From contig BCHH01000021.1 of NCBI GenBank assembly GCA_001599595.1, positions 285,382-349,381 on the forward strand: 64,000 nt of DNA, read 5' to 3'. The first letter of the stretch is position 1. Every line of letters starts with the position of its first letter. Source of the stretch: Beverwykella pulmonaria. Lineage: Eukaryota > Ascomycota > Dothideomycetes > Pleosporales > Melanommataceae. A program made the position numbers and the translations under genes. Positions 4,269-56,231 of the stretch are shown here, in pieces. The notes under the pieces are model-generated. The model ran no database searches and was not told the DNA's origin. It worked only from the letters and a program-made list of their open reading frames with translations.

Positions 4269-5469
4269 ATGCCTCTCGAGAAAAAGTTAAACCGCACGCT
4301 TCGGGCGGCGGAAGAGGACTCGGACAGTGAAGAGTACTACGAGGTTACTGATAGATCATCGCCATCTATCATCGATACAGGCGACAGCGCAGACATAATA
4401 AGTTCAGGTTCCGAGGATGAAGAAGGCGAGGGTGTGCGTGAGGAAGAGGATGCAGTAAGATTTCTAAGAGAGAAATTTGGCTCAAGCTAATTCTCATCAG
4501 TCAGAAGACTCAGACGAGGATCAGTATGAGATGCGAATGAGCAAGGTCTCGTTTGGCGCATTAGCCAAGGCACAAGAATCGCTCTCCAAGGAACAGGCCA
4601 GTCGGAAACGAAAGCGCGGCGACGGCACATCTGCATCACAGGAAGAAAAGCTGCAAGCACTACGAGAGAGACTGCGGGCTCTGAAGGCGGAGAAGCTTGC
4701 AGCAGCTCCACTCTCAAAGCCCAACAAAAAGGCGAAGACGTCCGAAAAGGCTTCCGCAAAGGCCCAACAAAAACATGACGACGAGGATGCGGATGAGGAT
4801 GAGGATGAGGATGAGGAGACAGATGGTGACTCGTCTGAGCCTGAGGCAGCACCGTTTGCGCGTTCTAGCAAGCATGCGCCTAGGGTCCAATCGAGCAAGC
4901 GTGCTGTTACTAGAAAGCGAACTGCTGTCGAGGTGAAGAAGCCCGTATTTCGAGACCCCCGTTTCGATCAACTCTCCGGAATCGGACCGAACGAAATTAC
5001 GCTGAAGAATCGATATTCCTTCCTCGACGACTACAGGGCCTCGGAGATGGCAGATCTCCGGGCCGCCATCAAGAAGACCAAGAACGAAGCAGAGAAGGCG
5101 CAACTGAAGCGGCAACTACTGTCGATGGAGTCTCAGCAAAAGGCACGAGAAGCAAAGGAAAAGCAGCAAGAGATCTTGCAAAAGCACAAGAAGGAGGAAA
5201 AGGAGCTGGTCAAGCAGGGGAAGCAGCCCTTTTACCTGAAGAAGGGTACGTCTTTCTACCACTTGTTTCCACGATACCCAGTACCCATTCTTCCACCATA
5301 TCCGTTCCAGAATACTAACCTTTTTCTAGCCGAGCAAAAGAAACTCGCCCTCATCGATCGCTTCCAAAACATGAAGTCGAAGCAGCGTGCTCATGTCATC
5401 GAGCGGCGCCGCAAGAAGACGACGGCGAAAGAGCGGAAGAACATACCTGCCGACCGGCGGGGAGCGTGA
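4269..5469 (+). CDS. RRP36: rRNA biogenesis protein RRP36
   Basis: Three exons (4269-4454, 4501-5245, 5330-5469) give 356 residues. Intron 1 (46 nt, gtaaga...ctaat...cag) restores the frame between an acidic N-terminus and SEDSDEDQYEMR. Intron 2 (84 nt, gtacgt...actaac...tag) joins QPFYLKK to AEQKKLALIDRFQNM, the conserved RRP36 junction region. Family hallmarks are FRDPRFD, YSFLDDYRASEM, the long basic coiled-coil region and the very basic C-terminus (IERRRKKTTAKERKNIPADRR). RRP36 is a nucleolar factor of the 90S pre-ribosome needed for early cleavages in 18S rRNA maturation. Residues 1-65 and 120-145 are acidic Ser/Asp/Glu runs. Intron 2 is a multiple of three and stop-free, so retention would add 28 residues in frame. 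Confidence 0.93.
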
Positions 5470-6164
5470 AACATCATCACCAAAGCACTAGACGTAGTTA
5501 TGCACCATCACAAGTATACAGTTCGTCGAAGCGATATTTCATTCGCCTCGGAAGAATTGCATGCATGCTGTACCTATGACAAGCTGCAGAGCTAATTTAG
5601 CTGTCCCAGCCTCTCGTGCTCACGGGACTCCCTGCATCGTGAGAACCGTCTTTTTCCCCGCTTGATCAGTTCATGCACAGTATGTATCCGCAACGTCTAG
5701 GACTTTGCGCTCCGCTCCCATTCAAACGATGGTGTTCCCAGCCAGCCACCACGGCGCAACCTTCCATGCACATATCCAACGCCACCACGATGGCATTCTG
5801 CACACTAAATGACACGCAGCCGTAGCTGTTCGCAGGATTGGCGTTCGCGATCGCCGCGATCCCTGATAGTGTGTCCAAGCTGCGGGGACGGTGTTGCAAG
5901 CAGGGATTACCAAGGCCGCTGCCGCCAACTTCGTCATCTACGTCATAGCTGTGATTCTGCCCCTCCCAACCTCCTAAATGTCCTGCTTTTTAAGAGCAGC
6001 GCGGCCACCTGAAGCGTAGTATTCTATCTTCCAGTCTTGCTCGTCCTTCCCGTTTTCGTCTGCGATTTTGGTTGTTTGGATACCTTGTTGTCTTTCTTCT
6101 ATCCAGTTTTTCTATAATTTAAACCACAACACACCAAAGTCACCTCACAGCTCTCCTGCCCATC
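5470..6164. other. intergenic; promoter and 5' leader of the BTB gene
   Basis: Pyrimidine-rich sequence from about 6030 leads into the ATG at 6165 and is probably the transcribed leader. Small frames at 5666-6012 on both strands have no family resemblance. Confidence 0.5.
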
Positions 6165-7230
6165 ATGCCGGACGTCACGCAAGAAAAGCCGCTCCATGAG
6201 TATGTCTCTTCTACACTTCACTGTTGCTTGTCGCAATTGTTGCATACACTCCCCTAGCCGAGTCACAGCTCCAAATCGCCTCGCATTCCCAGCTCACCCT
6301 GCCCCTCTTCCATTACCACATTCCTTTCATCCCAACTAACACGGCCGCAGGCTCCTCTCCCGCTCCATGGTAGACATCTACGTCGGTCCCTCAAACACGC
6401 ACTGGATCCTGCACGAAAAACTCCTCTGCCACCACTCGCCCTTCTTCCGCAAAATATTTTACGCCAAGGGCTCCAACACCACCTCCTATGGCCTACCCGA
6501 CGAAGAAGACTACCCCTTCAAGACCTTCGTCGGCTGGCTATACTCTTCTTCTCTCCCCGTGCCCCGCGAGGAGTCTGACCTAGGAGTCCTCTTCGACCTC
6601 TACCTGATGGCGGAGAAATTCCAGACACCAGCCCTCATCGCCGATGTCCTGCAGGTGGTAAGAGAGTGGTACAAGTACAGCGACACATACCCGGGCCTAC
6701 GGCGCGTGCAGTACATCTACGCGAATACAGAAGACGGGAGCCCGATGCGGCACATGCTCGTGCATTCCGTGGCAAGACTGATGGTGCTGGAAAACGGCAT
6801 GAAACCCCACTGGGACAAGGCGCTGCGCAAGAACGGGCAGTTGGCTGTCGACATCATCAAGGCAATTCAGGAGTGGGGGCTGGAAGAGGACGTCGTGCCC
6901 GATGCGAGGGAGGAGCCGGAGCTGGGCGAGGACCTGGTCGACGTCGAGCAAGAGCTTAAGGAGCAGCAGCAGGAGATTGATGCCGAGGAGGAGGGCGGGA
7001 GTGTGAAAGACGGAGAGGCCGATGTGGAGGACGAGCACGATGAGGCGCATGATGACAGCGAGGATACCGTCGTGGGGTCCCCCGAGGAGAAAAAGGTGGA
7101 TATCAAGTCCCAGGGCAAGGTGCAGAAGCCAAATGGGCTCACGAACGGATTTAAGAAGCTAGGTATCGAGGACGGGTTTAAGCAGATATCCAACGGGATC
7201 ACAAATGGGGACTACGGCACGCTACATTAA
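6165..7230 (+). CDS. BTB/POZ domain protein
   Basis: Two exons (6165-6199, 6351-7230) give 304 residues. The 151-nt intron has gtatgt, a CTAAC branch point and cag, and puts MPDVTQEKPLHE ahead of LLSRSMVDIYVG. The BTB fold spans roughly residues 12-115: SMVDIYVG, the W-I-LHEKLLCHHSPFFRKIF core and EEDYPFKTFVGWLYSS. A helical region follows to ~185. Residues ~190-265 are strongly acidic (Glu/Asp/Gln-rich), and the tail repeats Asn-Gly pairs (KPNGLTNGFKKLGIEDGFKQ). Short fungal BTB proteins of this kind are dimerising adaptors, some for cullin-3 ligases; the partner here is unknown. Without the first exon the frame would start at 6367, inside the domain, so the spliced model is preferred. Confidence 0.88.
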
Positions 7231-23559: not shown

Positions 23560-23758
23560 CTAGCAACTTTTTCTTTTCTAGCAATGCTTACTCTTATCCC
23601 TTTGTACGTGCTTGACTTGCCATGCCTCTTTCTGCCTAACAGCGTCTGCCCTGCTAGCGCCACCCAATTTCTCCTTCCAATCTTGTTGTTAGTATCACAT
23701 AATTTCTCAGCGTTGATATCACGTGATTTCCCTGCTCTAGCAGCAGTCACATAATTAG

Positions 23759-24274
23759 TGTAAGGGGCCAGGTGCTCGAGGAGCCAATGTAGTGCCAAAA
23801 GAATACTTATGAATTCGATGTAGAGTCTCGGAGGTTTGGAACCTCAGCTATATACATGGAATGTGCTTAGTCACCCCGATCAGATGTTCCGAGGTCTGTG
23901 GCCTCCCGAGGTCTGTGGCCTCCCGAGGTATGTGGCCACCCAAGGTCTGTTGCCTCCCGAGGTATGTGGCCACCCAAGGTCTGTTGCCTCCCGAGGTATG
24001 TGGCCACCCAAGGTCTGTTGCCTCCCGAGGTATGTGGCCACCCAAGGTCTGTTGCCTCCCGAGGTATGTGGCCACCCAAGGTCTGTTGCCTCCCGAGGTA
24101 TGTGGCCACCCAAGGTCTGTGGCCTCCCGAGGTATGTGGCCACCCAAGGTCTGTGGCCTCTTTCATCTCGGAGGTTGGGAACCTTAGCCATATACGTGAA
24201 ATGTGCTTAGTCACCCCGACCTGAGGTTCCGAGGTTCACCAACCGAGTATTCCTGAGGTCTGTAGCCTCTTACA
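23759..24274 (-). repeat. gypsy A 3' LTR (left), 516 bp, expanded 17-mer array
   Basis: TGTAAGGGG...CTCTTACA. It is 153 bp longer than its partner, fully explained by nine extra 17-bp units. A ~68-bp sequence occurs on both sides of the array (from 23827 and from 24167) as a diverged direct duplication. Confidence 0.95.
23889..24160. repeat. 17-bp minisatellite in the gypsy A LTR, 16 units
   Basis: Units follow the pattern CCGAGGTCTGTGGCCTC with two main variants (CCGAGGTATGTGGCCAC and CCAAGGTCTGTTGCCTC) that alternate to make a 34-bp higher-order period. The array is exactly 272 bp. Each unit has GAGG/CCTC-type inverted ends. Confidence 0.97.
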
Positions 24275-24774
24275 TACCCTCCTGCTCTCCCGAAGCGGGG
24301 TCAACAGGCTTAAACTGGGGGCTCGGGTGCCAATGTTCGCAACAAGGGTCGTAGTATCGCCCGCTCCGCGCGCATTCCGAGGTATCCCCAAGCAGCGGCC
24401 GAAAAACCTCATCGAATCCTTAAATATCTACGCTCGCTTGTACTTTCGAGGCTCAGCGTTGTGCCGCAGCTCTATCCCAAGGTTCTATCGCTCAGCATTG
24501 TGACTCAGAGTTTCCGGCCGGGTTTGGCGCTGCTTTCACTTTGTCGTTGTTTGTTTACCTGGAAACCTGCGCTCCTGCTTTCACCTGAGGCTCCGAGCTT
24601 CGGATGCTGTGATTGGTTGCTCCCGCGCTAGAAGGTTCTAACGCGAATAACAGTCCCTTGTTGTTGAGCTCCCTTTCCTTGCTCTCTTTCCATGCCAACC
24701 CTTCCCCTTCAGAGCTTCGAGCACCTCAACTCTTTCTTTCGGACATTCTTTCTTGCTCGTACACCTCAGTCACT

Positions 24775-25862
24775 ATGACCAGCAAGCGCGAGGCCTCTTC
24801 AGAGCTCCAGCCTGGCACACCCAAGCTGCAGCGCGTTGATTATTTCGAGGGCTTGCTTCAAGGCTCACCCCAAAGGATCGGCCGCAAAGTCAAGGCCAAG
24901 TTTGCTCCTGCCGTTGATGAAGACGAGCTTGAGTCTGCTCGCTTGGTGGGTACTTGAATTGTTCTATAGCTTTCCTTGGCTGATTCGTGTAGACGCTTGA
25001 GGATTGGGGTCTTAATTCTGATTCTCTCACTAAGCTTGAGGAGCACGAGCAGGTTCAAATCGCCAACGGTATCTTGAGGAACTGCCGCCACTGTATGGAT
25101 TCGCCCCGCGAGTGCAAGTACCGCGCTTCTCGTTCCGTCAAGCAGTCTGTTCCGCCTGACTTCAAGTATTGCCCTTGCGCCAACTGTCAGAGCAGCAGCA
25201 GGCAGGATGAGTGTTCCGGTCCCGTAAGTCTAGTTTCGTTCCTTAGCTTCTTGGTGTGGCTCCTAATCTCGTCACAGCTTCACTTCTTCATTCCATCGGA
25301 TGACGCCGCTCTCCGCCTCGAGTACGCCAATCTCTGCGTGGGCCAGTACCGCATGTATACCAACACCGCCGGTCCGCTGCAGAAGGCTAGCTACCCCCTC
25401 GAGGTTTACAAGCTGCTGGAGAGGATTGACTTCACGGTTAAGGATGATGACGCCCAGAAGACTGGCGGCCAGAAGTTCAGCGTTCCCAACCTTCCTGAGC
25501 TTGGTCGCGTCGTCCAGGCAGCCTTCGCGCCTTCTCTTGGTAGCATTGTAGCTGAGCTTGAACAGCTTCGTGCTCCCCTCCCTGTAAGTTCTCGGCTATC
25601 CTCCTTTTGCTTTGGATTTTCTCAAACTAACATCGTACGGGCGCTCGTGTCTGAGGTTCAGTCGCTGCGCGCTGAAGTTCGCGGTCTCCCCGAGTCGTTT
25701 GCCGACGCTCTCGCTGATGCCATGCGCGCCCGCTTCGTCACTCGTGAGGAGCATGGTTCTGTGGGTAGGTTGTGATTCTTCGCCTTGTCCAGAGCTTTCG
25801 CTGATAATCTTGTAGGTGGTGAGCGTGGTGAGGTTAGTGATATTGACGGTTCTCATGGTTAG
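24775..25862 (+). CDS. antisense accessory gene of gypsy A: Cys-rich, Zn2Cys6-like protein
   Basis: Opposite to gag-pol, between the pol stop and the 3' LTR. Five exons (24775-24945, 24993-25223, 25278-25583, 25662-25764, 25816-25862) with introns of 47, 54, 78 and 51 nt, all GT-AG, give about 285 residues; exon 4 could also start at 25656. The ATG context is CACT-ATG-A after a pyrimidine-rich leader; an inverted CCAAT box (gattgg) lies at 24611. Residues ~88-133 hold C-x2-C-x6-C, then C-x2-C-x8-C (CRHCMDSPREC ... CANCQSSSRQDEC): Zn2Cys6 spacing but with a 20-residue linker. A phase-0 intron follows almost directly. The rest is helical, with a leucine-rich stretch (IVAELEQLRAPLP) and an arginine-rich C-terminus. 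I do not recognise the family. An in-frame upstream codon extension to 24613 is possible but less likely. Confidence 0.8.
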
Positions 25863-26001
25863 TGGGTTCTAGGCTGCTGCGCTCAATGTATTGGCGTTTT
25901 CTTCCCCCGTGCGTTCCGTGTGGCTGCTCAGCGGCCTCCCTGTTTCGGCGGGTTTCTTTGACAGCCGCTGTTCATGCCAATCTGGAACCCCCTTCTTGAT
26001 T

Positions 26002-29000: not shown

Positions 29001-30297
29001 GCGCGTTCGCAAGGCCAAAAGGCACCACAAGCCACTCGTAGAGCCCGAATCTGGTTCGGAACGCCGTTTTCCACTCTTCACCCTCAGCGATTCTCAGCCT
29101 GTGAAACGCTTGAATCACGTCAAGCTTGGTGAACCATTTCGCTTTGGCCAGTAGTTGCAGAGTCTCACCAATCAAAGGCAGTGGGTATCGGTCCTTCTTG
29201 GAGAGGGCGTTAAGGGCGCGATAGTCCACGCAGAATCGAAGCCCTCCGCCAGGTTTCTTTGCGAACAGAACTGGTGCCGCGGCGCTCGACTTGCTCACGC
29301 GTATGAACCCCTTGTCAAGGTATTCTGTGAGTTCTTTCCTGAGGACCAAAAGCTCTTCTCTTGACATGTTGTACAGGGGGCCGTAGGGGATCTCAGGTGT
29401 TGTGCCGTCTTTTTCAATCAATGGGATTGAATGGTCTACTCCGGCTCCGCGAAAAGGCGGCAACCGGTCTGCTTGCTCGCGGCTGAAGGTCTCCCAAAGG
29501 TCCTTAAAGGCCTCAGGCAATATTTCCCGAGGGTCCACTTTGGGTTTCGGGCTGAGGGCCTTCTGGATATCCCTTAGCGAGGCGGAAAAAACCTTTATCC
29601 CATTCTTCAATCTTCGGTTCCGTCGGTCAATTGATAAGAAAGCAGACGCTTGGACCCCTCTTGGCTTGGGGAGAGGTTTCCTTCCCTCCCGATCTCGGAT
29701 CCTTACTCGCGAACTCCCAATCCAGATGGACTTCTTCGCTGGTGCGAGCGTCACCTGGTTTTTCTTCATCCATGGGAGTCCTAGGATGAGATCGTAAGCT
29801 TCGTCGTCAGGAGCGACGTACGCCATCATGGTTTCGACGTGCCCTTCAATATCAACCTCAAATTCTGCTATTTCGTGGACCGACATACGAACGCCACCTA
29901 TCCCTATCACCTCACGGGCGTTCGCCAGCTTTTTGCGCTGCAGATGGGTTTTCTCTGAGAATCTTTCAGACACAAACCCGAAGGTCAGACACCCTGTATC
30001 AAGCATAGTGGATGCAAACTCAATATCATTAACAAGCGAGTGTACAGTTACTGGTGTTGAATCTGGCCATAACCTTCGGAAGTTGTTGAAACTCGTTCTC
30101 GAACCCTTCTCTACTTCCCTCCCCCAACGGCGACTATCGCTGGGAGATCCTAGTTTTCCGATTCCTCGGAAACCTCGTCGTCGTCGTTCTCTTCTTCTGC
30201 ATCTGCCGAGGTTCCCGGCCTTGCTGCGCGCACCTGTGCTGGTCTCTCGGCCGGGAGGAGCTCGCAACGGTTCGCTCGGTGGCCCGTTTTTCCACAA
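26002..30297 (-). CDS. gypsy A pol polyprotein (protease, RT, RNase H, integrase, chromodomain)
   Basis: Open for 1431 codons with no stop. Order: aspartic protease (DTG at ~100-102), reverse transcriptase (AYIDDVLIFS, catalytic DD at ~456-457), RNase H (LEADASGWSTGG near 600; AIHDKEMLAVIKCVEEW), integrase zinc region ending CDVCGRTKP near 1022, catalytic core (TMDFITKLPESEG, SDRGGQFVSEF, and the Glu in ETDGQTERMNSVLEEY), and a chromodomain at ~1353-1408 (EYLVQWENYAERTWEPRENF). It is therefore a chromovirus; the chromodomain would direct insertion to particular chromatin. The first ~50 codons overlap gag in another frame, so the true product is probably a gag-pol fusion made by -1 frameshifting rather than initiation at 30297. 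Confidence 0.95.
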   Translation of the reverse strand: MWKNGPPSEPLRAPPGRETSTGARSKAGNLGRCRRRERRRRGFRGIGKLGSPSDSRRWGREVEKGSRTSFNNFRRLWPDSTPVTVHSLVNDIEFASTMLDTGCLTFGFVSERFSEKTHLQRKKLANAREVIGIGGVRMSVHEIAEFEVDIEGHVETMMAYVAPDDEAYDLILGLPWMKKNQVTLAPAKKSIWIGSSRVRIRDREGRKPLPKPRGVQASAFLSIDRRNRRLKNGIKVFSASLRDIQKALSPKPKVDPREILPEAFKDLWETFSREQADRLPPFRGAGVDHSIPLIEKDGTTPEIPYGPLYNMSREELLVLRKELTEYLDKGFIRVSKSSAAAPVLFAKKPGGGLRFCVDYRALNALSKKDRYPLPLIGETLQLLAKAKWFTKLDVIQAFHRLRIAEGEEWKTAFRTRFGLYEWLVVPFGLANAPSTFQRYINWTLREHLDDFCSAYIDDVLIFSSGSRKDHEEKVRIVIQKLGAAGLHLDIKKSEFCVKKTKYLGFIVEVDKGVSMDPEKVQAIREWQVPTSVKGVRSFIGFANFYRRFIKDFSGIAAPLTKLTGKGVEFHWGQEQQSAFEFLKNVFCTEPVLAHFDPERESVLEADASGWSTGGCFSQYDEQGVLRPVAYFSAKNSPAECNYAIHDKEMLAVIKCVEEWDYMCRAVDHLTVYTDHKNLTYFAQRRKLDERHVRWADILSKINMTFVYRPGTVNSRADALSRREQDLPKDADDARLKSRDFSLLKKQTREDGTKVFSPQKPTATNEGPTEGDPPQEPGQGTDSPLHAYPVRTRRSTREAHQGAPTPPTPLGTPPPRDRRAGGTDKENLEGEEATPAVRERNGRRAEAEERSPTPSGDSPGRSREATDSSGPQTANLGSQNAAPLDRGPGTNSTLAGSTADLTPGPPMLRPKEPDFATMWHEAETSKRDEQYQSIKEAVMNQARRFEPRWKLTASIGECSIDPQGKLCYRDRRWVPNSEPLRTSLVAVAHSSPASGHSGRENTYKILARDYFFPGMSNYVRQYIKNCDVCGRTKPWREAKRGLLKPLPLPERAWKDITMDFITKLPESEGCTNIMVIVDRLSKDVKFVGLPNLEVETVVKAFVRHWVADHFLPDSITSDRGGQFVSEFWTRLCELTSIDRKLSTAKHPETDGQTERMNSVLEEYLRAYCNWQQDDWMRWLPLAQIAIKGRDATSTGVSPFFLSHGWNVEPIQSLPTEEVRAARGALNQAKAAEAMVNKFREVFEFAQAKLALAQQEQERQANKRRKDAPILREGDKVWLKYGDHLRNSRPSKKLDWKNGKFTVKEVANSHVVELNVPPGMHPRFHVDRLKLSPNNPLPSQITDDSQPPAIITEEGEEEYSVVDICKERWSRNGKRVEYLVQWENYAERTWEPRENFNQAAALDRWEEFTRSHRNEQGRLPPNFHRYIPQISFY

Positions 30298-31487
30298 CGA
30301 AAACAGGCTCCCCTGAGCTTGCGGGTCTTAATTTCTTCATTAGATACCCACGCTGCTCGCTTCTTGCCGCTGTTGGGCTTGGAACCTTCTCGTTTCTGCT
30401 GATTGGCAGAAAATCGGCCAGGACTCGCCCGGGTGGATTCCCAATCCATCTCTTCAGGAGGGGCTGTGCTGGCGGCTAGTTGAACTTGCCGAATTTTGCT
30501 GCGGAGGATGTTTTCCTCAATCAAGTTGACCCTGTCCTGGAGGCGTTGGAGGTCCCAACTCCGGTCAACTTCAACTGTGATCATCAACGACCTCAAATCG
30601 TCCCTCAGGGCGCGCTGGTAGACGTTTTTTAGAGTTTCTTGGTTATCCTCGTCAGCCTCCACCGCGCAGTTGTTGAAATCCAAATTGAAATCGCGTAACT
30701 TGCGGTTTCCTTGTCGCATTGTAAAGAGGCGGTTGCGAGCCACCTCCTCAGCCAGGGTGTCGCGGAAATTCCTGTCAAGGTGGTCCCAAAACTCTCTTTC
30801 AGTGCATTTTGGGTGGCGTGCGAGGTAAGAAAGCCCCACCTTTGCTGCTCGATCTAACAGTCGGCTCATGATGTACCCAGTAATGTTTCCAAGGACTTCT
30901 CTGTCCTCAGATATCTTGAACTCCATGACCTTCTGGAAGCGTCGATAGTCTCTCCGGTCTCCTTTAAAGTGTTCAGGGTCCGCGACCCGAGGTCGGCGGT
31001 TGCTGCCTCCCTCTTTGTTTACCATCCGTAACACCATTTGTTCTAGGAAGTCAAGCCGGTCGTTGGTTGGTTTGCTTTCTGCCGTCAAGGTTTGTGCCCC
31101 TGAGGTGTCCTCGCCCCCCACATGGCCCGTGGGTGCCGAGCTCGGGGGCGGCTGGGTCTGCGTCGTTGTTGGGGGTTCAGAGCGTCCCCCGCCCATAGTT
31201 GCGAGGCGTCTGTTAAGATTTTGAGCTTCAGTTTGGAGCGCGTCCTCGTGGTTGATAAGTTTCGTAACTTCGTTCAGGAACTCCGGGAGATCTGCTTCGT
31301 CTAGCCCGAGTCCTCGTAACTCGGAGTTGAACTGTTCAACGATCCTGCCGTCGTCCCATCCACCGTCGTCTCGTAGGCTAATGGCCCGTCTCGCGTATAC
31401 TCCTGCGCGGAGATGTAAATTTTCGGTGGAAGGTCTCTCACCCGGTTCCATACCCGGTTCCATACCCGGTTCCATACCCGGTTCCAT
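30150..31487 (-). CDS. gypsy A gag with zinc knuckle
   Basis: 445 codons. The N-terminus begins with four Met-Glu-Pro-Gly repeats encoded by a perfect 12-bp tandem repeat (31441-31490), so several Met codons could start translation. The capsid-like middle contains ADPEHFKGDRRDYRRF and FWDHLDRNFRDTLAEE, typical of fungal gypsy gag. The zinc knuckle CFRCGKTGHRANRC (C-x2-C-x4-H-x4-C) is near residue 393, and the C-terminus is acidic. It overlaps pol by 148 nt; pol is in the -1 frame relative to gag. A GGAAAAC heptamer (30159-30153) directly precedes the gag TAG. Confidence 0.93.
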   Translation of the reverse strand: MEPGMEPGMEPGMEPGERPSTENLHLRAGVYARRAISLRDDGGWDDGRIVEQFNSELRGLGLDEADLPEFLNEVTKLINHEDALQTEAQNLNRRLATMGGGRSEPPTTTQTQPPPSSAPTGHVGGEDTSGAQTLTAESKPTNDRLDFLEQMVLRMVNKEGGSNRRPRVADPEHFKGDRRDYRRFQKVMEFKISEDREVLGNITGYIMSRLLDRAAKVGLSYLARHPKCTEREFWDHLDRNFRDTLAEEVARNRLFTMRQGNRKLRDFNLDFNNCAVEADEDNQETLKNVYQRALRDDLRSLMITVEVDRSWDLQRLQDRVNLIEENILRSKIRQVQLAASTAPPEEMDWESTRASPGRFSANQQKREGSKPNSGKKRAAWVSNEEIKTRKLRGACFRCGKTGHRANRCELLPAERPAQVRAARPGTSADAEEENDDDEVSEESEN

Positions 31488-31672
31488 ACCCGGTGTTTTG
31501 TGGTGGTCAAGAGTCCGTCGGGTTTCTCTTGATGCTCGCTGTGGGGAAACTCTCTCCCTCCACAGGTCGTGGCCCTCGTTCGTGAGTTGCTTAGCAACCT
31601 CGGTGTCCTTGAGTTAGGAGTCTCACTGCCCCGCGGCAGATTGAGCTCAGAAAGTTGGGTGATCGAATTCAA

Positions 31673-32035
31673 TGTAAGGGGCCAGGTGCTCGAGGAGCCA
31701 ATGTAGTGCNAAAAGAATACTTATNAATTCGATGCAGAGTCTCGGAGGTTTGGAACCTCAGCTATATACATGGAATGTGCTTAGTCACCCCGATCAGATG
31801 TTCCGAGGTCTGTGGCCTCCCGAGGTATGTGGCCACCCAAGGTCTGTGGCCTCCCGAGGTCTGTGGCCTCCCGAGGTCTGTGGCCTCCCGAGGTATGTGG
31901 CCACCCAAGGTCTGTGGCCTCTTTCATCTCGGAGGTTGGGAACCTTAGCCATATACGTGAAATGTGCTTAGTCACCCCGACCTGAGGTTCCGAGGTTCAC
32001 CAACCGAGTATTCCTGAGGTCTGTAGCCTCTTACA
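31673..32035 (-). repeat. gypsy A 5' LTR (right), 363 bp
   Basis: Same ends as the left LTR, but with seven 17-bp units (31803-31921) instead of sixteen. Two positions are N (about 31710 and 31725), probably consensus conflicts between repeat copies. Confidence 0.95.
31803..31921. repeat. 17-bp minisatellite in the right gypsy A LTR, 7 units
   Basis: Exactly 119 bp. The units are the same variants as in the left array, except that the CTGTTGCCTC variant is absent. Confidence 0.97.
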
Positions 32036-32040
32036 ATTAG

Positions 32041-35646: not shown

Positions 35647-35832
35647 TGTAAGGAGACTGTCGGCAGGAGATAGAAATATGGGTATAGTGTGTATTCAAGA
35701 CGAATCCTTGAGGAGTACTCAGGAGTCGGAGGGTAACTATATACATATCAGCACGTGACTGGAGGTCACGTGGTCCAAGACCTAGCTGAAGGCTAGCTGA
35801 GGATGGCCCGGAGAGGAAGGTTGCTCGTGACA
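35647..35832 (-). repeat. gypsy B copy 1, 3' LTR (left)
   Basis: 186 bp, TGTAAGGAG...CGTGACA as read on plus. It contains an 8-bp-arm hairpin around two CACGTG hexamers. It differs from the right LTR mainly at CpG and CTG positions. Confidence 0.93.
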
Positions 35833-36770
35833 GAGCCCCCCCCTTTCTTGAGGGTCGTCCCAATCCTCTAATACAGAAAAGATTCAGGGAACCTTCTAGA
35901 CTTCCTCAGTGCCACACTAGACAAGCATTGGCCCTTTCCTATCCATGCCTTAGGTGGATTAAACTCCAAAAAACCCTTTTTAGGAAAAATCATGTTAGGA
36001 GAAATACACCCAAAGCGCCTAGCAATAGGGCTGCAGGGATTTCTATCCCCACACCTTACTACACCATGTCCGTCACAAGCAAACTACAGGTCACAACCTT
36101 GATTAATCCATCTGCTTTATGAGATGGCGCGTGGACCAGCAATTCACTGTAAGTGCCCTGCTATAAACGTATTCTCTATAAATCCTGGCTAGGGCGACAT
36201 CAGTCAGTGTATAGAGGTCCCTTGGGGCGTCCTTAACTATGTACTAAGTAGGATACTCCTCAGAGAATTGCCTAGAGGTAGATTGTGCAGTGCTATAGCT
36301 CTGCGTACCCAGTAGATCACGTCGCTTAACAGTGACCTTACAATTGGGTATGTGTAGCTTAACAGGCGCTGTATAAGTCACAGGTAGGTGTCACATTCAG
36401 CAGTTGTCCCCCTTGGTGCTCACGGGCTCCATAGGGTCACTGTTTTTGACCATTTTCAGGTCAAGATACGTTATTTATAGACTTCTGTTTCCAGGACGAC
36501 AATCTTGGCTAATCCACGTGGTTTTGACACCTCAGCTGTATTATTGCCTAGTATAGGACACACTCCGTGTACCTAATAGCTCAAGGGGAACCTCTGTTCC
36601 TTATTAGATCAAGCCCTAGATTCAGTATGTGTCAGCTAAGTAATGCTTGTGAAGCATACGCATGTTTCCTCACTAACCTAATACCCAAGGACTTTCTTCC
36701 TTATAAGCAGTAAGAAGGCGGCTCTGCGCCGGCACGGTCACGGGTGAAAGAGTGAGAGCTGTTGGGTGGA

Positions 36771-36780
36771 TATAAGAGAG
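36771..36780 (+). promoter_or_regulatory. TATA box of the gypsy B antisense gene
   Basis: tataagagag lies 67 bp before the ATG at 36838; copy 2 keeps the same box at the same distance (about 56299-56294, minus strand). It fits an own promoter for the antisense gene, separate from the LTR. Confidence 0.55.
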
Positions 36781-36837
36781 CTTCCTTTCGCCCTCAAACT
36801 CCATTACCTCAACCACTTACTCTCCTCCTCGCCCATC

Positions 36838-37720
36838 ATGCGCGCTCCTCATATAGTCTCTAACTCTATCCTTCCCAATCACGTTTATCAGTTGCCGCTA
36901 AACATGCAGTCACAGCCTAGCCTAACTCAGTTCTAGTGCGAGGCTTGTATTGTTTCCTTCACCACGTTATCCACAAAGGAACCCACGGGCAGTGTGGAGA
37001 GCATAGTGGCCGTCATGCGCCATAGCAAATACTGCAGCCAGAAGACCCCTTTTAGCGTTTGCAATGGCTGCTAGGGTAACAAGAAGGGCAGCTGCGTGCA
37101 GGTAGGTCCTTCATCAGCCCGCTGTTGGGGTTTTTGCTAACCCGCGCTTGGATTAAACCCATCTTTCAGCGTGCCGTGAACATCCTTAACTTCCTAATTA
37201 AACGCGCCCTTGACAAGACTGCCAAAGCCTTGCTTGCTGCCCCTAAGACCAATCCTAAGCAGCTTATCGCGGACGAGACTGTTCTCAAGTATTGGCGTAA
37301 CTGCTATGAGTACGCAAGGCACCTTCGCGACGCCTTTACCGCCTACAGCAACAATCTCAAGCGTAAGATTAAGGCGAGCGGCCTGGACGAGGCGGAGTAT
37401 CAGAAACAGCGTCAGGCTTCTCGTGAGCACAACATAGACAGGTACAAGGTAATAGTTCTCCTACCCCTTCTCCTGCTGCAAGGTTCTAATTCCCCTAGGC
37501 TAGCATTAGCAGTGTGGGTGAGAAGAAGCCTAGCAATGTTGTCTGTGATGAGCACTAGGAGCGCCACTTCACTACTCCAGAAGGTGGAGCTACCAATTGC
37601 AAGAAGCGTTGGTACTACTACAGGACTAATGTTCCTAATGGCAATAAGGTTGGGACTCCCGTAACTCCGCGTCACTCACAAGGCGCCAGTCAAGGTTACA
37701 AGTTGAGCCCCTGCTCTTAG
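36838..37720 (+). pseudogene. antisense accessory gene of gypsy B, copy 1 (three in-frame stops)
   Basis: Three exons (36838-37101, 37170-37448, 37499-37720) with GT-AG introns of 68 and 50 nt make 254 codons plus the final stop. In-frame TAG codons occur where copy 2 has Trp (before CEAC), Gln (after CNGC) and Trp (DKHW). The product would have CEAC, then KYCSQKTPF, then C-x2-C-x7-C immediately before intron 1. Exon 2 encodes a helical domain (ALDKTAKALLAAPKTNPKQL, YARHLRDAFTAYSNNLKRKI), and exon 3 a basic, Gly/Ser-rich tail. The first Cys pair and the C-x2-C-Q-x-C block echo the gypsy A antisense protein. Function unknown. Confidence 0.75.
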
Positions 37721-37969
37721 TAATGTAGAATATTCCTTTCCTTTGACTAGCCATAAAGGCTGTTAGGGTGCTCACAGGCAACAGCCAGCCCTCAGGCGGA
37801 CTAATAGTAGGGTTCTAAATTTTATATCATTCAGTATTCATGTGTGATCGTCAGTAACATGTAATCTGGCTAATTTAGTCTAGGATACGTGATGCTGCAA
37901 GCCTCAGGCCTTAGCCTTTTCATTCCTCAAATTGCTATTGCTTCTGACCTCAGTCAGGCTTTTCTTAGT

Positions 37970-40900
37970 CACCCACAGCGTCATTTTAGTAGATCCTCAG
38001 ATCTAGTGTGTGAGGTGGTATAAGCCTTGACAGTCCGTTGTCAGCCCCGCCTATTCCCGCCCGTGCCCTAAGACACATCTCATGGGGTACAGAGGTAATC
38101 CTCAAGCAACTTGTTGCATCTGTTAAGATGGTCTGCAGGTTCCCAGGTGTTGTCCTTATTAGACCACCCAAGCCATTTCACTAAGTACTCCCTTCCTTAG
38201 GAGACTGTGTCACAGTGTCCAAGTATCCCTTCAACCTCATATCTGTCTGCGGAAAGAGCTTCTTCCAGGATCTGTACAGGTCCTAGTCAAAACCCCTTTA
38301 ACTCCAAGGGTGCAACCTAAGGTTCAAGGAGGGATACGTTGAACACTAGATGTACACGCTCTATTAATAGAGGGAGATCTAGTTAGTACACTAAGCGTCC
38401 AATGCGTTCAGTAATTGTGAAAGGCCCTAGGAACTAGGCATCAAACTTCTTTAAAGGACGCATAGTTGTAATGTTTTTTGCTTGTAGGATAACCTGCTCT
38501 CCTTTAGCAAAGAACCTGTCAGCGCGCCTAGTGTTATACCATTTTGCTTAACTACGCTGGGCGTGTTCAAGGCTGTATTTAGCAGCCTCCCACATCTCAT
38601 TCCATTGCTTAAGATGACCAGCAACCTGCTGTCGCAATTCCAGTGTCTTAGCTTCCTTGTCCTAGACCTGCNGTGGCCTACAGAGCTAGTGTTNATNAGG
38701 TATTCNATTAAATCCCTTAGGGTCTATCCCAAAGGCAACTCGTATNGGACAGTGTTTATGAGATGCATAGGTTTTGGAGTTATACGCATACTCCGCGTAT
38801 AGTAATAACTCTCCCCAATTGTCCTGCTTGTAATTCATGTACATGCGCAGGTATGTCTCTAACTCCTAATTCTAGCGCTCTGTTTGCCCATCAGTCTAGG
38901 GGTGGAAAGCCATACTAAGCCAGTAGTCTATCTTAAGATGGTAACAGATGTCTAACCAGAACTAGCTGGTGAACACAGATCCACAGTCCAACAGAAGCGT
39001 ATCCAGCAGGCCGTGGGCGAGGAAGCACTGTTTCATCAACAGATCAGCTACCCTCTAGGCCATTACCATCTTAGTAACAGGGAGATAGCGGACATACTTT
39101 GTGAATCTATCAACTAGGACTAGAATCGCGTCATATTTGTTCCCCTTCTCATCTTTAGACTTTAGGAGATCTGTTACAAAGTCTAAAGAGTAGTAACGCC
39201 ACAGCGTACTTAGTAGTGGGAGTGGCTCAAGCAGCCCCCAGGGTTTGTGCCGCCTAATCTTGTTCAGCTAACAAGAAGGGCACCGGCCAATGTATCTTAA
39301 TACATCCCTCTTAAGGTATAGCCAATAGTACTTGCGCCTTAGCAAGTCCACAGTTTTCTCAATGCCATAATAGCCCCCCATTAGGTTATTATAGTTCTTC
39401 ATCAAGATGTTTTCCCGCAGAGCAGAATCTTCAGGAATCCACACTTTCCCATTCCTACAGAGGACGCCATTGGGGTTAACTTCCCAAAATAGACTACCCT
39501 TCTTCACCCCGCCCACTTCCTGACGCGTTAGCAACTCATAAGCAAGATAGGCCAAATCTCATTCCTAAACCTGCCTAATGTAATCTAGGAGGCGGTCTGG
39601 AATCTCCAGTGCGTAAGCAGTTTCGTCTTGCGTGGCTTCTATCGCAAGAATATTTAGCAACAAAACTTGTCCGTTGAGAGCCTAAAGGAGACCCTCTGCA
39701 ACGTCAAAGTTCTCATGCCTAGCTTTGAAATTATCAAATTGACACCAGCACTCCTGGCCTGTAGGTAGGGCTGTCAATTCAGAGAGCAACGCATTGCAGT
39801 TGGCTAAACACATGTCAGGGAATTCCTTTCCAGGAGTATTAACCTTTTCAGGAGGCTAACAGGGCGCTACTAGCCCCTCCTTAGGGAGGTCTAGTCCCTG
39901 TACTGCCTAGCCAGCACTTAAAGCCCTAGACGTCCAGAGCATCCAGATTCAAAGCTTTTGTTGGAGAGTAGGAAGCATCACATCACAACATACTTGCCCC
40001 TCTCCCAGAGCAAAGCCCTTTGCATAGTCAGGTCTTCGCGAGGGCCTATCAGCTAGATTTTCTAATCCTAGCTTGTATTCAACTTCAAAGTCAAATCAGG
40101 CTAACTCTTCCACCCAACGCGCTTGCTTGGGGGAGAGCTCCTTCATAGTCATAAAGTAACGCAAGTTACTGTAATCAGAGAGCACTCAGATTGTTAACAG
40201 GGTGTGCTTAAGGTACTGGCGCCATGCCCTAAATGCCTCTACAATCACACATAGCTCCTTGTCATGCGTATGCCAACAGAGCTTTAGCCCTAAGAGCTTC
40301 TGGCTCCAAAACGCAACCAGCTTCCAATAACAATTGGTTGCCAGCTCTAACATTTCAGGCTAAAGGAGGATTGCTGCCATAGCAAATTCTAAAGCATCCA
40401 TAAGAACTATCACTAGCTTCAAGGGATTGAAGTGCTAGAGTACTAGAGCGTCCAAGAACTTTTCTCACAGTATAAAGAAGGCTTCTCACACTTCTTTAGG
40501 CCAGGACCACTCACAGTTCTACTTTGTAGGACCCTTACAGGGTTTCTTTTAAAATTTGCGTTTCCTCACCCCACCCTCTTAAGGCAACAGGGCTTGAGCG
40601 GCCGTCATATAGTCCACCAACAGGCGTATAATAGAGGAGTAGTTGAAGATAAACCTCTAGTAGAAGTTCATAAACCCAAGAAAGACCTAAATGTCTTTGT
40701 AACTCTTAGGTTCAGGCCACTCCTTAATTGTGTGTACCCGCACAGGGTCTATCACCACACCCCCTAGTGTGACAATAAACCCCAAGTACTCAACTAACTT
40801 AGTTAAGAACGTGCACTTGCTAGCCTTGCAGTACAGCCCCCATTCAAGGAGACAGTCAAGGACCTCTTCAACGTGCCTAAGGTGATCCTCCTCATTCTTA

Positions 40901-43900
40901 GAGTAAATCAAGATATCATCTAGATACACCACGCAGGTGCGATCTACCAGGCCGCCCAAGGCTCTGTGGATGTAGGATTAGAATGTCGCTAGGGCGTTTG
41001 CTAACCTAAACAGCATGACCAGATACTCAAAATGTCCATATCGTGTTTTGAAGGCTGTTTTCCATTCATCTCCCCCTCAAATGCGGAGCCTGTGATAGGC
41101 GTCGCGCAAATTGAGCTTAGTAAAGATTCTGGCCTTCAACAGGCAATCCATCATTTCACTCACAAGTAGGATAGGATACCTGTTTTTAATTGTAACTTTG
41201 TTTAACCCTCTATAGTTAACGCAAAGCCTCAATGTCCTATCTACTTTAGGAACAAAGAGAATCAGAGCACTAACCAGAGACTTGCTTAGGCAGATCCACC
41301 CCTTCTCCTGTGCTGTGTCAAGGTAATCGCGCAGGATATCTAATTCATGGCTAGAGAGATTGTAGATAGGAAGATTAGGTATCCTTGCCCCCTCCTCTAT
41401 CTCAATCGCGTAATCATATTCCCCATTAGGACGTAGGATCTTAGTTTAATGCTTACTAAAAGCAAGCCATCTATAGTAAAGTTCCTCCAGCACAAACCTT
41501 AGTTTGTCAGGGTCTGGCTTATCATCCTCAGGCGAGATGTATGGAGCATCCTCCTCATCCCTAGGGAGGATACAGGCCACGCCCGGAGGCAGTGTTGCCC
41601 GCCTTAGGTTCTCATCATACATGCTGGCCACAACTTGACGTGCTGTTGCCTCTAGTAGCTAGGAGAGTTGCAGGAGGTCCTCCACGCACTTCTAAAGGTA
41701 ATTAATAATCTTAAGGGTCATGTTTTTTAGCCAGAGTAACCCTTGACGGTGGAACCATTCTGCATCTTGAACTACATCGCCGCTAGGTCCCGCAGGTCTA
41801 CTAAGTGGCGGTCTAGGCCTGAGGCCTTTCTAACGCAGTTCCTAGATGAGAGCGTTCTTAACACTGTTGGTTACTAGACTAATAAAAAGCTTCCCTGGGT
41901 AGAGCACGTATGCTCGCTCTCCTTGTGCGATGTCATGGAGGAGGTGATCCACAGATGTTAACTAAATCTGCTCAGCTTCATCCTCCCACCATTCCACTTA
42001 ACCTGTTGAAAAACAGATCTTAGGATCAGCTTCTTAAAGCCACGGGTATCCTAAAACAAGGTTGTATCCCTCAAAGTCAGCTGCCCAGAATCTTTGAGGA
42101 CCTACAGTTTTTATAACTTGCAAACTGCTAGGGCATTGCAGTGTCAAGTTGTAAGGCTTTTTGAGTTTCAAGTGATTTTCGTCTAAGAAAGTGGCAACAG
42201 GCTTCCAGTGGAAAAGCGCCTGTTCCAGTTTGAGGTCATCAACCTTACATTAGCTAATAAGGTTAATTTCTGCGCCTAAGTCGTAGAGGGCGCGGAGCTT
42301 TATCAGGGCTCCGTCAGCTCTTTGTAGGTACACGTCCATTGCAATACGCAGATTCTTCCCATTTAAGTTAGGCCCTAGCCGCAGATAGGAAAGGTTTGCT
42401 ACTAGGGCTTCTCTTTTTCTGCATTGTCTTTGCAGTTTTTGTTGTTGTCGCCCTAGCTTCTGTTTTTCTAGTGTGTCTTCTAGTAGCCATTGCAGTTGTT
42501 GTTTCCACAACTATTGTTGCAGCCTTGCTAGTCACGGTTCCCGCCTTAGCTTTAGTCATTAGGCAGGTTGCTATTGGCTTGTGAGAGGGACAATTGGCAA
42601 GAGTATAACTAGTTACCCTGATTCGCGGGTTTCTAGTCTTGTTTCTTCTCTTGGCCCTTAGGGTAGGGCTGTAAGGAGGCTTGTTGTTTGTTTCTTGGGC
42701 CCTGGCCGTTGTCTCACTAGGGTGTTGACTGGCCGTTGTCTTGCTGGGGCGTTGACTAGCCAGTAGCAGGTCAGGCTACTATTTCCGCGTTACAGAGTGC
42801 TCTCTTGAAGTCTGCCTATATTAACACATTCTCCAAGGCGCCATTTCTTTGTAACTCTTTACAGTATGCTTCTGGGATCTTCGCCTAGACAAAAGCAATC
42901 TTTAGTTCATCATCGTCGCTACTATCGTCCAGCTTAAAGAAGCTGTGCGGCAGGAGTGATTCCTTCTTTAAGAGATAAAGAAGGAAAGAGTTGACGGTAT
43001 TATTATCACGCCAGCTATAGTTCTAGAACCTTCAGTAGTTCTCAAACTTAGTAAGGACTAGGTCCTGGACAAGCTTCTGCTTAGCAGAGTGTAGGTCCGC
43101 CCAGGAGGTGATTGATCTGTTATTAATCCTTTGTTGGATTAGTTCTTAATAGATACTGTACTGTATAGTACCCATTGCCCAATGTGTACAAGTAACGGAG
43201 TCTTCTAGCACTTGTGCGTACTAGAAGGCTCCTTCAACATTCTTAGCCCACTAGTCAACTTGCTGTGGCGTTGGTATGCTAAACTCTGTTCCCAGCTTAG
43301 GCTTTGGCTGGACGTTGTTCAGCACTCAGATTAGTTTCCCAGCGTCGTCGTAGGTTAACCAGGAGTAATCTGTTAGTGGGCCGCTTGACTTCAGGCCAAG
43401 GGCCTAAGAGGCAAAGTCCACCTAGTTCTTTAGTGTTTCCAATTGCTCAGGGGGAGCGTTCGCAGTTTAGGCTGCGAAGTACTCTGCCAGGAGGGATTGC
43501 ACGAAGGCTTTATTGGACAGGGCTAACGTTGGTATGTCAATAGGCCCCCGTTGGGGATAAGTGAGGCCTTCTCTAAGTGGTAAGTTATTAACCCCCGTGG
43601 CCAGGTGTCTTCCCAATTGGTGTAAACTCTAAAGAGGGTTTTCAGGAAGTAGGTGTTGTGGCAAAGGGGCGCCCTAATCTAGACTAGCGGTGGCTTGTTA
43701 GTTTCCCAGCCCTTCACTAGTAGCGCTCCAACAGTCAGTTCGCTCTAGTTGGGGGTTTTGTTGATCCCCCGCCTCTAAGTCCTCAACAAAATCATTGACT
43801 TCGTCCAGCTCTTCCATGCCAGTCTCTTTGCTGTTGAGACAGCAATTGTTTTCGTTGTCAAGCTGTTCGTCAGACTCCAATAAGTCCAGGATTGACTCCG

Positions 43901-43985
43901 CAACGTCATCAGGGTGGCTTTGGATTGGCTGCTTTCCCTTATCAGCGTCATCTTTCTTCATAGCTGTCTTGCGGGTCCCCGCCAT
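37970..43985 (-). pseudogene. gypsy B copy 1 gag-pol, degraded
   Basis: Starts at ATG 43985 (MAGTRKTAMKKDD, acidic N-terminal gag). Recognisable open pieces are: protease (ALYDLGAEINLIS near 42300; copy 2 has NSG, so the ancestral motif was probably DSG), reverse transcriptase (VVYLDDILIYSK with intact catalytic DD, 40687-40959), and integrase zinc domain (39268-39555, ending RYIGRCPSC). A chromodomain region follows towards 38.0 kb. Stops are mostly TAG at former CAG or TGG codons. Scattered N bases lie at 38672-38746. Confidence 0.88.
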
Positions 43986-44098
43986 AGTTTCGTTTCAATA
44001 GGTGGACGTTGATAACAGTAAGGTAACAAAAAAGATGAGTTTTTTCCCCAAAATCTCAATCGACTGCCTTCCTGAGTAGGAGTATGAAGGATTCGAAT

Positions 44099-44471
44099 TG
44101 TAAGGAGACTGTCGGCAGGAGATAGAAATATGGGTATAGTGTGTATTCAAGACGAATCCTTGAGGAGTACTCAGGAGTCGGAGGGTAACTATANNNNNNN
44201 NNNNNNNNNNNNNNNNNNNNNNNNNNNNNNNNNNNNNNNNNNNNNNNNNNNNNNNNNNNNNNNNNNNNNNNNNNNNNNNNNNNNNNNNNNNNNGACTGTC
44301 GGCAGGAGATAGAAATATGGGTATAGTGTGTATTCAAGACGAATCCTTGAGGAGTACTCAGGAGTCGGAGGGTAACTATATACATATCGGCACGTGACTG
44401 GAGGTCACGTGGTCCGAGACCTGGCCGAAGGCTAGCCGAGGATGGCCCGGAGAGGAAGGTTGCTCGTGACA
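44099..44471 (-). repeat. gypsy B copy 1, 5' LTR (right), interrupted by the gap
   Basis: The first 95 bp of the LTR (44099-44193) are followed by 100 N. The LTR then restarts at its 9th base and runs to its end (44294-44471). The 95 bp are therefore present twice, most simply two contig ends overlapping in one LTR. Confidence 0.85.
44194..44293. other. assembly gap (100 N)
   Basis: Exactly 100 N, the conventional size for a gap of unknown length, placed inside the LTR. Confidence 0.99.
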
Positions 44472-48784: not shown

Positions 48785-48970
48785 TGTCACGAGCAACCTT
48801 CCTCTCCGGGCCATCCTCGGCTAGCCTTCGGCCAGGTCTCGGACCACGTGACCTCCAGTCACGTGCCGATATGTATATAGTTACCCTCCGACTCCTGAGT
48901 ACTCCTCAAGGATTCGTCTTGAATACACACTATACCCATATTTCTATCTCCTGCCAACAGTCTCCTTACA
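48785..48970 (+). repeat. gypsy B copy 2, 5' LTR
   Basis: TGTCACGAG...CTCCTTACA. It contains a CACGTGAC/GTCACGTG inverted repeat with a five-base loop. The sequence just after it (attcaaatcc; attcgaatcc in copy 1) may be the primer-binding site, but I cannot assign a tRNA. Confidence 0.95.
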
Positions 48971-49083
48971 ATTCAAATCCTTCATACTCCTACTCAGGAA
49001 GGCAGTTGATTGAGATTTTGGGGAAAAAACTCATCTTTTTTGTTACCTTACCATTATCAACGTCCACCCATTAAAATAAAACC

Positions 49084-55000: not shown

Positions 55001-55103
55001 GGGCACAGGCGGGAATAGGCAGGGCTGACAACAGACTGTCAAGGCTCATACCACCTCACACACTAGATCTGAGGATCTACCAAAACGACGCCGTGGGNAA
55101 CTA
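49084..55103 (+). pseudogene. gypsy B copy 2 gag-pol, degraded
   Basis: The gag start codon aligned with copy 1 is ATA here (49084-49086). A 112-codon gag piece is open at 49405-49743. The protease motif reads LYNSGAEINLIS near 50780, and RT at 51726-51992 (RLCVNYRGLNKVTIKNRYPI) continues to VVYLDNILIYSK with DD changed to DN. RNase H (LTDASEFAIAAIL; HDKELCAIVEAFRAW) lies at ~52.65-53.05 kb. The integrase core is at 53883-54113 (MDFITDLPKSKDEKGNKYNV; LLSDRGSVFTSQF), and a chromodomain near 54.83-54.98 kb includes [18 protein letters not shown] stops dominate. Confidence 0.9.
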
Positions 55104-55348
55104 AGAAAAGCCTGACCAAGGTTAGAAGCAATAGCAATTTAAGGAACAAAAAGGCCAAGGCCTAAGGCTTGCAGCATCACGTATCCTAGACTAAATCAGC
55201 CAGATTACATGTCACTAACAATCACACATGAATACTAAATAATATAAAATTTAGAACCCTACTATCAGTCCGCCTAAGGGCCAGCTGTTGCCCACAAGCA
55301 CCCTAATAGCCTTTATAGCTAGTCAAAGGAAAGGAATATTCTACATTA

Positions 55349-56231
55349 CTAAGAGCAGGGGCTTAACTTGTAACCTTGACTAGCGCCTCGCGAGCGACGC
55401 GGAGTCACGGGAGTCCCAACCTTATTGCCATTAGGAACATTAGTCCCATAGTAGTACCAACGCTTCTCGCGATTAGTAGCTCCACCTTCTAGAGTAGCAA
55501 AGTGGCGCTCCCAGTGCTTATCACAGACAACATTGCTAGGCTTCTTCTCACCCACACTGCCAATGCTGGCCTAGGGGAATTAGAACCTTGCAGCAGGAGA
55601 AGGGGTGGGAGAACTATTACCTTGTACCTGTCTATGTTGTGCTCACAAGAAGCCTGACGCTGTTTCTAATACTCCGCCTCATCCAGGCCGCTCGCCTTAA
55701 TCTCACGCTTGAGATTGTCACTGTAGGCGGTAAAGGCGTCGCGAAGGTGCCTTGCGTACTCATGGCAGTCACGCCAATACTTAAGAACAGTCTCGTCCGC
55801 GATAAGCTGCTTAGGATTGGTCTTGGGGGCAGCAAGCAAGGCTTTGGCAGTCTTGTCAAGGGCGCGTTCAATCAGGAAGTCAAGGATGTTCACAGCACGC
55901 TGAAAGACAGGTTTGATCCAAGCACAGGTCAGCAAAAACCCTAACAGCAGGCTAATAAAGGACCTACCTGCACGCAGCCGCCCTTCTTGTTACCCTGGCA
56001 GCTATTGCAAACACCAAAAGGGGTCTTCTGGCTGCAGTATTTGCCATAGCGCATAACAGCCACCATGCTCTCTGCACTGCCCGTAGGTTCCTTTGTGGAC
56101 GACGTGGTGAAGGAAACAATACAAGCCTCGCACCAGAACCAAGTCAGGCTAGGCTGCAACTGCATGTTTAGCGGCAACTAATAAACGTAATCAGGAAGGA
56201 TAGAGTCAGAGACTACATGAGGAGCGCGCAT
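55349..56231 (-). pseudogene. antisense accessory gene of gypsy B, copy 2 (one in-frame stop)
   Basis: Exons 56231-55968, 55899-55621 and 55570-55349 match copy 1 base for base in length, as do the introns (68 and 50 nt). Only one in-frame stop is seen, a TAG near codon 18 (former CAG). An internal Met further on could still open the Cys-rich part. The sequence shows FWCEACIVSF, KYCSQKTPFGVCNSCQG and GGC before intron 1, then the helical domain DKTAKALLAAPKTNPKQL and the basic C-terminal tail with TPVTPRRSRGASQ. A TATA box lies 67 bp upstream. Length conservation without indels despite heavy point mutation suggests both copies were functional at insertion. Confidence 0.75.

Follow-up and report, generated by a model that had tools for sequence, protein, structure and literature searches.

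A predicted multi-exon antisense gene between pol and the 3' LTR of a Ty3/gypsy element of Beverwykella pulmonaria

Can an LTR retrotransposon, which passes through an RNA stage, own a gene with introns? The question is raised by a 64-kb stretch of Beverwykella pulmonaria DNA (G000:C21:285382-349381, in a genome of 45.6 Mb and 31 contigs), here called the window, in which an open frame with intron signals runs antisense to a gypsy element, gypsy A. The earlier note on this DNA had described an undamaged ATG-to-stop gene between pol and the 3' LTR, and this description is correct: the spliced coding sequence of 858 nt encodes 285 amino acids and a stop, with no internal stop codon. Judging from the sequence, we consider it probable that the gene is a resident accessory of the gypsy A family, with a promoter of its own, and that its product is a regulator of the element, probably a zinc-binding one.

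The element and its antisense gene

Gypsy A is a Ty3/gypsy element on the minus strand of the window, and extends from the 5' LTR (31673-32035) to the 3' LTR (23759-24274). It is flanked on both sides by a 5-bp target-site duplication, ATTAG. In the pol product, matches to protease, RT, RNase H, the integrase zinc-binding domain and the chromodomain (PF00385) exceed the Pfam cut-offs; those to the integrase core and SH3 fall short of them. The best-scoring solved structure for it is that of Ty3. Among the 120 closest pol relatives listed, the named fungal sources are Berkeleyomyces, Ascochyta and Alternaria; most of the 120 are unnamed metagenome proteins, and the list also includes two proteins from amphibians and a record that is filed under Escherichia coli. 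The features of the element and of the gene are as follows.

23759-24274, minus strand: 3' LTR of gypsy A, with TG...CA ends and 34-bp internal tandem repeats
24275-24774, plus strand: upstream region, putative promoter, with CCAAT (24330), TTAAATA (24420), ATTGG (24612) and a pyrimidine-rich leader
24775-24945, plus strand: exon 1, starting with the ATG
24946-24992, plus strand: intron 1, GTGGGT...TGTAG, 47 nt, removal needed for the frame
24993-25223, plus strand: exon 2; the Cys cluster occupies 25083-25214 (residues 88-131)
25224-25277, plus strand: predicted intron 2, GTAAGT...CACAG, 54 nt, open and in frame
25278-25583, plus strand: exon 3
25584-25661, plus strand: predicted intron 3, GTAAGT...TTCAG, 78 nt, open and in frame
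25662-25764, plus strand: exon 4
25765-25815, plus strand: intron 4, GTAGGT...TGTAG, 51 nt, with an in-frame stop inside
25816-25862, plus strand: exon 5, with the stop codon
26002-30327, minus strand: pol ORF, with protease, RT, RNase H, integrase and chromodomain
30150-31613, minus strand: gag ORF, with Retrotrans_gag and zinc-knuckle matches, both slightly below the Pfam cut-offs
31673-32035, minus strand: 5' LTR of gypsy A; target-site duplication ATTAG at 23754-23758 and 32036-32040

The gag and pol frames are both open. They overlap by 178 bp (30150-30327) in different frames, which suggests that pol is expressed by frameshifting. Over the 129 + 121 bp compared, all of them outside the tandem-repeat core, one base and two Ns distinguish the LTRs; the element is thus young, as had been proposed. 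The 34-bp tandem repeats (23889-24172 and 31803-31921) are present in unequal copy number, so that the LTRs measure 516 and 363 bp. Because the 5' LTR has single Ns (31710 and 31725) and the neighbouring repeat a gap of 100 Ns (44194-44293), the assembly is less than fully reliable in these places. Two inverted stretches of 8.5 kb in the window (35647-44193 and 48876-57422), 92% complementary and separated by 4.7 kb, each contain gypsy RT matches with stops.

Where a primer-binding site is expected, adjoining the 5' LTR (31650-31672), the sequence is TTGAATTCGAT. By eye, about 10 nt of it are complementary to the 3' LTR (23759-24274; sense CATCGAATTCAT); an automatic check against the 5' LTR, which contains Ns, gave no complementary match of at least 9 nt. 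Self-priming is known from Tf1-like elements, and the complementarity suggests that gypsy A may prime itself as well.

The antisense gene lies on the plus strand between the pol stop (26002) and the 3' LTR. Its ATG at 24775 stands in the context CACTATGACC, and its stop codon occupies 25860-25862. All four introns are of the GT-AG type, with the branch-like motifs CTGAT, CTAAT, CTAAC and CTGAT in this order, and intron 3 has two possible acceptors (25655 and 25661). GC content is 0.43-0.47 in the introns and 0.49-0.65 in the exons, each intron being lower than exons 1-4. The position next to the 3' LTR, the leader with its CCAAT-type and pyrimidine-rich elements, and the well-formed introns together argue for an independent transcript.

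The earlier proposal of five exons and four introns stands in part. Unless introns 1 and 4 are removed, the reading frame is broken, so these two are needed; introns 2 and 3 are free of stops and divisible by three in length, and their splicing is a prediction. The five-exon structure is therefore likely. The alternative, to which we give a low probability, is that the gene is real but intron 2, intron 3 or both belong to the coding sequence or are retained in some transcripts, which would make three or four exons, or isoforms. It is favoured by the frame 24993-25775, which is open across both introns, and by a mechanical search for spliced coding sequences, which reads both as coding. However, the two introns have GTAAGT donors, branch-like CTAAT and CTAAC motifs and AG acceptors, and their GC content of 0.46-0.47 compares with 0.55-0.58 in exons 2 and 3. 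They also score below these exons on codon usage, although under the host model intron 3 scores about as exon 4 does (-0.115 and -0.110).

Alternatively, the stretch encodes no protein, and the frame is open by chance in what is really a functional non-coding antisense RNA or mere spacer DNA. This we consider improbable, but several observations speak for it. The open frame of 260 codons at 24993-25775 is by itself unexceptional, since the longest frame in 3000 shuffles (six frames) has a median of 141 codons and a 99.9th percentile of 320, and ORF length alone is thus weak evidence. The codon usage of the antisense coding sequence is only weakly coding-like, and that of the reverse complement is more so (0.256 versus 0.066 bits per codon with the gag-pol model, 0.193 versus 0.133 with the host model). 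Moreover, homologues were not found among 5.8 billion proteins: the 1795 candidates of one search included none at E<=0.01, and the 52 of another none at E<=10, and both reach only relatives sharing short exact words. On the other side, the spliced coding sequence is longer than any found on one strand in 150 Markov shuffles of the region (maximum 225 aa, median 97). Applied to the real sequence, the same rules gave 401 aa for the plus strand and 165 aa for the sense one; the 401-aa mechanical model differs from ours of 285 aa in its upstream start, its reading of introns 2 and 3 as coding, and its end. The lower GC content of each intron relative to exons 1-4 also argues for a gene, as do the GC content by codon position (0.65/0.45/0.63) and the Cys cluster, one of only three matches to its pattern in the 64-kb window; the other two are Cys-rich runs in the inverted repeat arms (42431-42520 and 50549-50638). 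An AlphaFold model was uninformative (mean pLDDT 38.5), with the contiguous frame 24993-25772 as the input and introns 2 and 3 read as residues.

Genomic copies, host homologues and sister families

A DNA search of the genome returned five places, namely the window, contig C1, two pieces on C15, and C17. The C1 copy is complete (85%). The C15 copy is split, with another gypsy RT between its pieces, and the C17 copy is truncated, the 5' part of the gene adjoining the LTR. In C1 and in the split C15 copy, the stretch with the antisense gene is contiguous with LTR and pol. The gene is thus present in all three other copies that retain this stretch, and full gypsy A copies lacking it were not seen among the few that exist. 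The region upstream of the gene was also found in pieces on C3 and C4.

All three of these other copies bear damage from repeat-induced point mutation (RIP). Over 24275-26000, 251 of the 253 differences between C1 and the window are C>T or G>A changes, and the same holds for 173 of 176 and 88 of 91 differences in the two C15 pieces. Changes of nearly this one type indicate RIP, and their pattern suggests that the host is a filamentous fungus with active RIP. Stops occur within the gene matches of the C1 and C15 copies, and the RT of C1 has stops as well. The C1 and C15 copies are therefore uninformative about selection. C17 has many non-RIP changes, of which the coding ones amount to four synonymous and four nonsynonymous, beside 26 of the RIP type. 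Because of the RIP mutations, dN/dS among the genomic copies was set aside.

It is also conceivable, if rather unlikely, that the gypsy A lineage captured a host gene once, and that this gene plays no role in the element. The gene resembles an ordinary fungal gene with a leader and introns of its own, as such a capture would. A search of the Beverwykella genome with the window protein gave 15 matches at E<=10 among the best candidates scored, all of them in gypsy A copies. The possibility that homologues occur as unrelated host genes, raised in the earlier note, thus found no support: no host relative appeared at E<=10 among the scored candidates, and none in the protein database, so that there is no sign of a recent capture from the host genome. 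Neither TRP28 nor any other Pfam family matched the spliced protein at E<=0.1, and it had no match to viral contigs, nor was any match of the gypsy pol alignment to viral contigs confirmed. The occurrence of the same stretch in the C1, C15 and C17 copies bears out the claim that the gene belongs to the element, as do antisense frames, at least some of them apparently spliced, at the corresponding position in other gypsy elements (see below).

The sister families speak in favour of a capture, since those examined have no room for the gene. The nearest gypsy elements by RT are L023-L025, with 55-56% RT identity. In these three sister elements, only about 150-190 bp separate the pol match from the repeated block taken as LTR. 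Either the gypsy A lineage therefore acquired the gene, or the other families lost it. A weak match of 41 residues to the C-terminus of the window protein, obtained without composition correction, was noted in L052 (E 0.008) and L053 (E 0.058), on the antisense strand within the approximately 150 bp between pol and the inferred LTR. We gave it no weight, because the remainder of the gene would not fit there and L052 and L053 are 97% identical to each other; it might nevertheless be a remnant of the gene. Further weak matches were seen in L054 and L055 (best E 0.014).

Antisense frames and Cys clusters in other gypsy elements

A scan of bacterial and archaeal assemblies with the pol alignment yielded 21 gypsy contigs, which presumably represent eukaryotic contamination. 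L066, L075, L078, L081, L117 and others are filed under cyanobacterial, proteobacterial and other bacterial assemblies. In L066, L117 and L119, the first 55-159 bp recur at the end, as expected of circularly closed single-LTR contigs.

Antisense frames with a Cys cluster similar to that of the window protein follow pol in L066, L075, L078 (with its near-copy L081) and L117. The finding of such frames with a similar six-Cys motif in four other gypsy elements is new. In L078, LTR-like repeats are located at 3-183 and 6880-7060, the pol match ends at 5123, and the antisense frame spans 5469-6761. The clusters read C-x2-C-x11-C-x10-C-x2-C-x6-C in L078, C-x2-C-x7-C-x8-C-x2-C-x8-C in L075, and C-x2-C-x11-C-x8-C-x2-C-x6-C in L066. 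L081 is 97% identical to L078 and has lost one Cys. The antisense frame of L117 (first seen as L097) is broken by introns, and its cluster is whole only after removal of a GT-AG intron in the mechanical model. The window gene thus has in common with these elements the slot, the strand relation and the C-x2-C ... C-x2-C-x(6-8)-C cluster. In contrast to the other antisense proteins, its exon 2 cluster, C-x2-C-x6-C-x18-C-x-C-x2-C-x8-C, is more loosely spaced, with an x18 linker and a seventh Cys. The Cys pattern is all that the window protein was found to have in common with the L066, L075, L078 and L117 proteins, and homology among them is only a possibility.

The six-Cys pattern, which was set after the sequences had been seen, occurs in 3 of the 21 loci, each time antisense after pol, compared with two matches in 20 rounds of shuffling (0.1 per round of 21 loci). 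A looser pattern, applied to 51 loci (L066-L116, overlapping contigs included), added only an L078 duplicate and three matches from one Cys-rich stretch of L108. L117 was found afterwards with a less specific half pattern, which gave 11 matches in the 51 loci (two being repeats of one contig) and 2-6 in shuffles. From a second set of loci, four whole contigs (L117-L120) were inspected by eye. Translations of the antisense strand after pol contain the cluster in 4 of 18 non-redundant stretches, L070 being covered by frames of at least 150 aa only, and L068, L069, L072, L074, L084 and L086 being too short after pol to count. It is absent from the other 14, and hence not universal.

Rule-based searches for spliced coding sequences returned longer products on the antisense than on the sense strand for L117 (305 versus 175 aa), L066 (534 versus 319 aa) and L078 (381 versus 80 aa), and the L066 and L117 frames appear spliced in the mechanical models. 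For L075 the search gave 131 aa, as the input stretch had no stop codon and the 181-aa frame was missed. Such recurrence of antisense frames in the same slot of other gypsy families argues against a one-off capture.

The Zn2Cys6 domain (PF00172) of fungal transcription factors follows the spacing rule C-x2-C-x6-C-x(5-12)-C-x2-C-x(6-8)-C. The window protein does not conform to this class, having no Pfam match at E<=0.1, too long a linker and one extra Cys. The antisense frames of L066, L075, L078 and L081 gave no PF00172 match at E<=1. A match of the L078 protein to a viral contig (L121) was discarded, because the contig has no pol match at E<=1e-3.

The L075 protein has weak relatives in the Beverwykella genome, with eight matches at E<=10, of which seven have E<0.1 (best 4e-6); the eighth, with E 3.7, is not significant. 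Three of the seven follow gypsy RT matches at distances of 1631, 1739 and 1778 bp downstream, and are antisense to them. The probability that this arises by chance is about 9e-7, given that 0.3% of strand-specific positions fall in the 4 kb downstream of any of the 70 RT matches. The remaining four lack a gypsy RT match nearby (G000 C1:3148303-3148557, C8:2190556-2190870, C3:3781078-3781395 and C5:745-942; E 1e-5 to 0.02), and are candidates for stand-alone, perhaps co-opted, copies or remnants. The window protein did not match the L075-relative loci in its own genome, and the L078 and L117 proteins gave no matches there. Common descent of the window protein and the L075 relatives is possible. 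Elsewhere, the L075 protein matched only itself and two weak candidates (E 0.16 and 0.27) in ten contaminated assemblies, and nothing in viral contigs.

Known antisense genes and a possible role

The protein had not been recognized from fungal elements in the earlier note, but the arrangement has a precedent. The brtn gene of Boty-like elements in Botrytis cinerea was reportedly described by Zhao et al. in 2011. According to the accessible parts of several papers, Boty of B. cinerea carries brtn as an antisense gene (PMC8365987, PMC7264820, PMC4227169, PMC5987419), a Boty-like element has a chromodomain (PMC4227169), and similarity to truncated Pol and BRTN is described for a Monilinia transcript (PMC5987419). 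Antisense additional genes are recorded there from plants and from Boty of Botrytis, and in Sclerotinia too (PMC7264820). As far as these excerpts go, gypsy A is like Boty in layout, as a fungal chromodomain gypsy, by the PF00385 match above cut-off, with an extra antisense gene between pol and the 3' LTR. Among the open-licence papers listed in literature searches, titles and abstract openings mention no antisense gene of fungal gypsy elements with a Cys cluster or with several introns; brtn may have either.

The plant aORF-3R genes (maize Grande gene23, rice RIRE2, Retand TRP28), as outlined in the review text available, are similar in position, in antisense orientation and in being present in most copies of a family; the window gene likewise lies between pol and the 3' LTR, antisense to gag-pol, and recurs in the complete, split and truncated copies. 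A regulatory role has been suggested for them in reviews, in whose accessible portions the function is unsettled (PMC7264820, PMC11963269). In contrast to them, the window gene is multi-exon and its protein lacks a TRP28 match; the word "intron" has no occurrence in PMC7264820 and PMC11963269.

A retroviral parallel also exists. HTLV has an antisense gene, HBZ, and is transcribed in antisense from the 3' LTR. An antisense promoter of HTLV is mentioned in a review (PMC7264820). Gypsy A resembles HTLV in that the antisense product stems from the 3' end of a retroelement, but HTLV is a retrovirus, and the presumed promoter of gypsy A is internal to the element, beside the LTR.

With respect to mechanism, RNA polymerase II would start upstream of the ATG, in the approximately 500 bp that separate it from the 3' LTR, and produce an antisense mRNA, which the host spliceosome would splice. 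The replicating genomic RNA would be the complementary strand and would have no splice signals there, so that the introns should survive retrotransposition. This argument had been put forward before, and is sound as reasoning. A small protein with a Cys cluster suggests metal and nucleic-acid binding, and the product is accordingly predicted to bind zinc and nucleic acids, probably both. It most likely acts in trans on the transcription, RNA or integration of the element, in line with proposals for other antisense accessory genes of LTR elements, and regulation of gypsy A, by analogy with what has been suggested for the plant genes, is the most likely role. In addition, the convergent antisense transcript may pair with the genomic RNA to form double-stranded RNA.

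The window gene seems to exemplify an antisense type of accessory gene that has been little studied. A wider reading, which we offer tentatively and hold to be possible though doubtful, is that fungal Ty3/gypsy elements broadly carry an anciently shared, often spliced antisense regulator of zinc-cluster-like type next to the 3' LTR, with the window gene as a divergent member and some stand-alone host copies co-opted. If true, fungal gypsy elements would have a shared antisense accessory gene akin in layout to the retroviral antisense regulators. Antisense genes of LTR elements have been described mostly from plants, and in fungi from Boty, none with a settled function in the reviews as far as their accessible text goes. 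The multi-exon case shows how an element may carry an intron-containing gene through its RNA stage. Finally, a Cys-cluster signature common to the antisense genes of several gypsy families would be a handle on their function, and presumably unnamed fungal Cys-rich proteins might be identifiable by it as genes of such elements.
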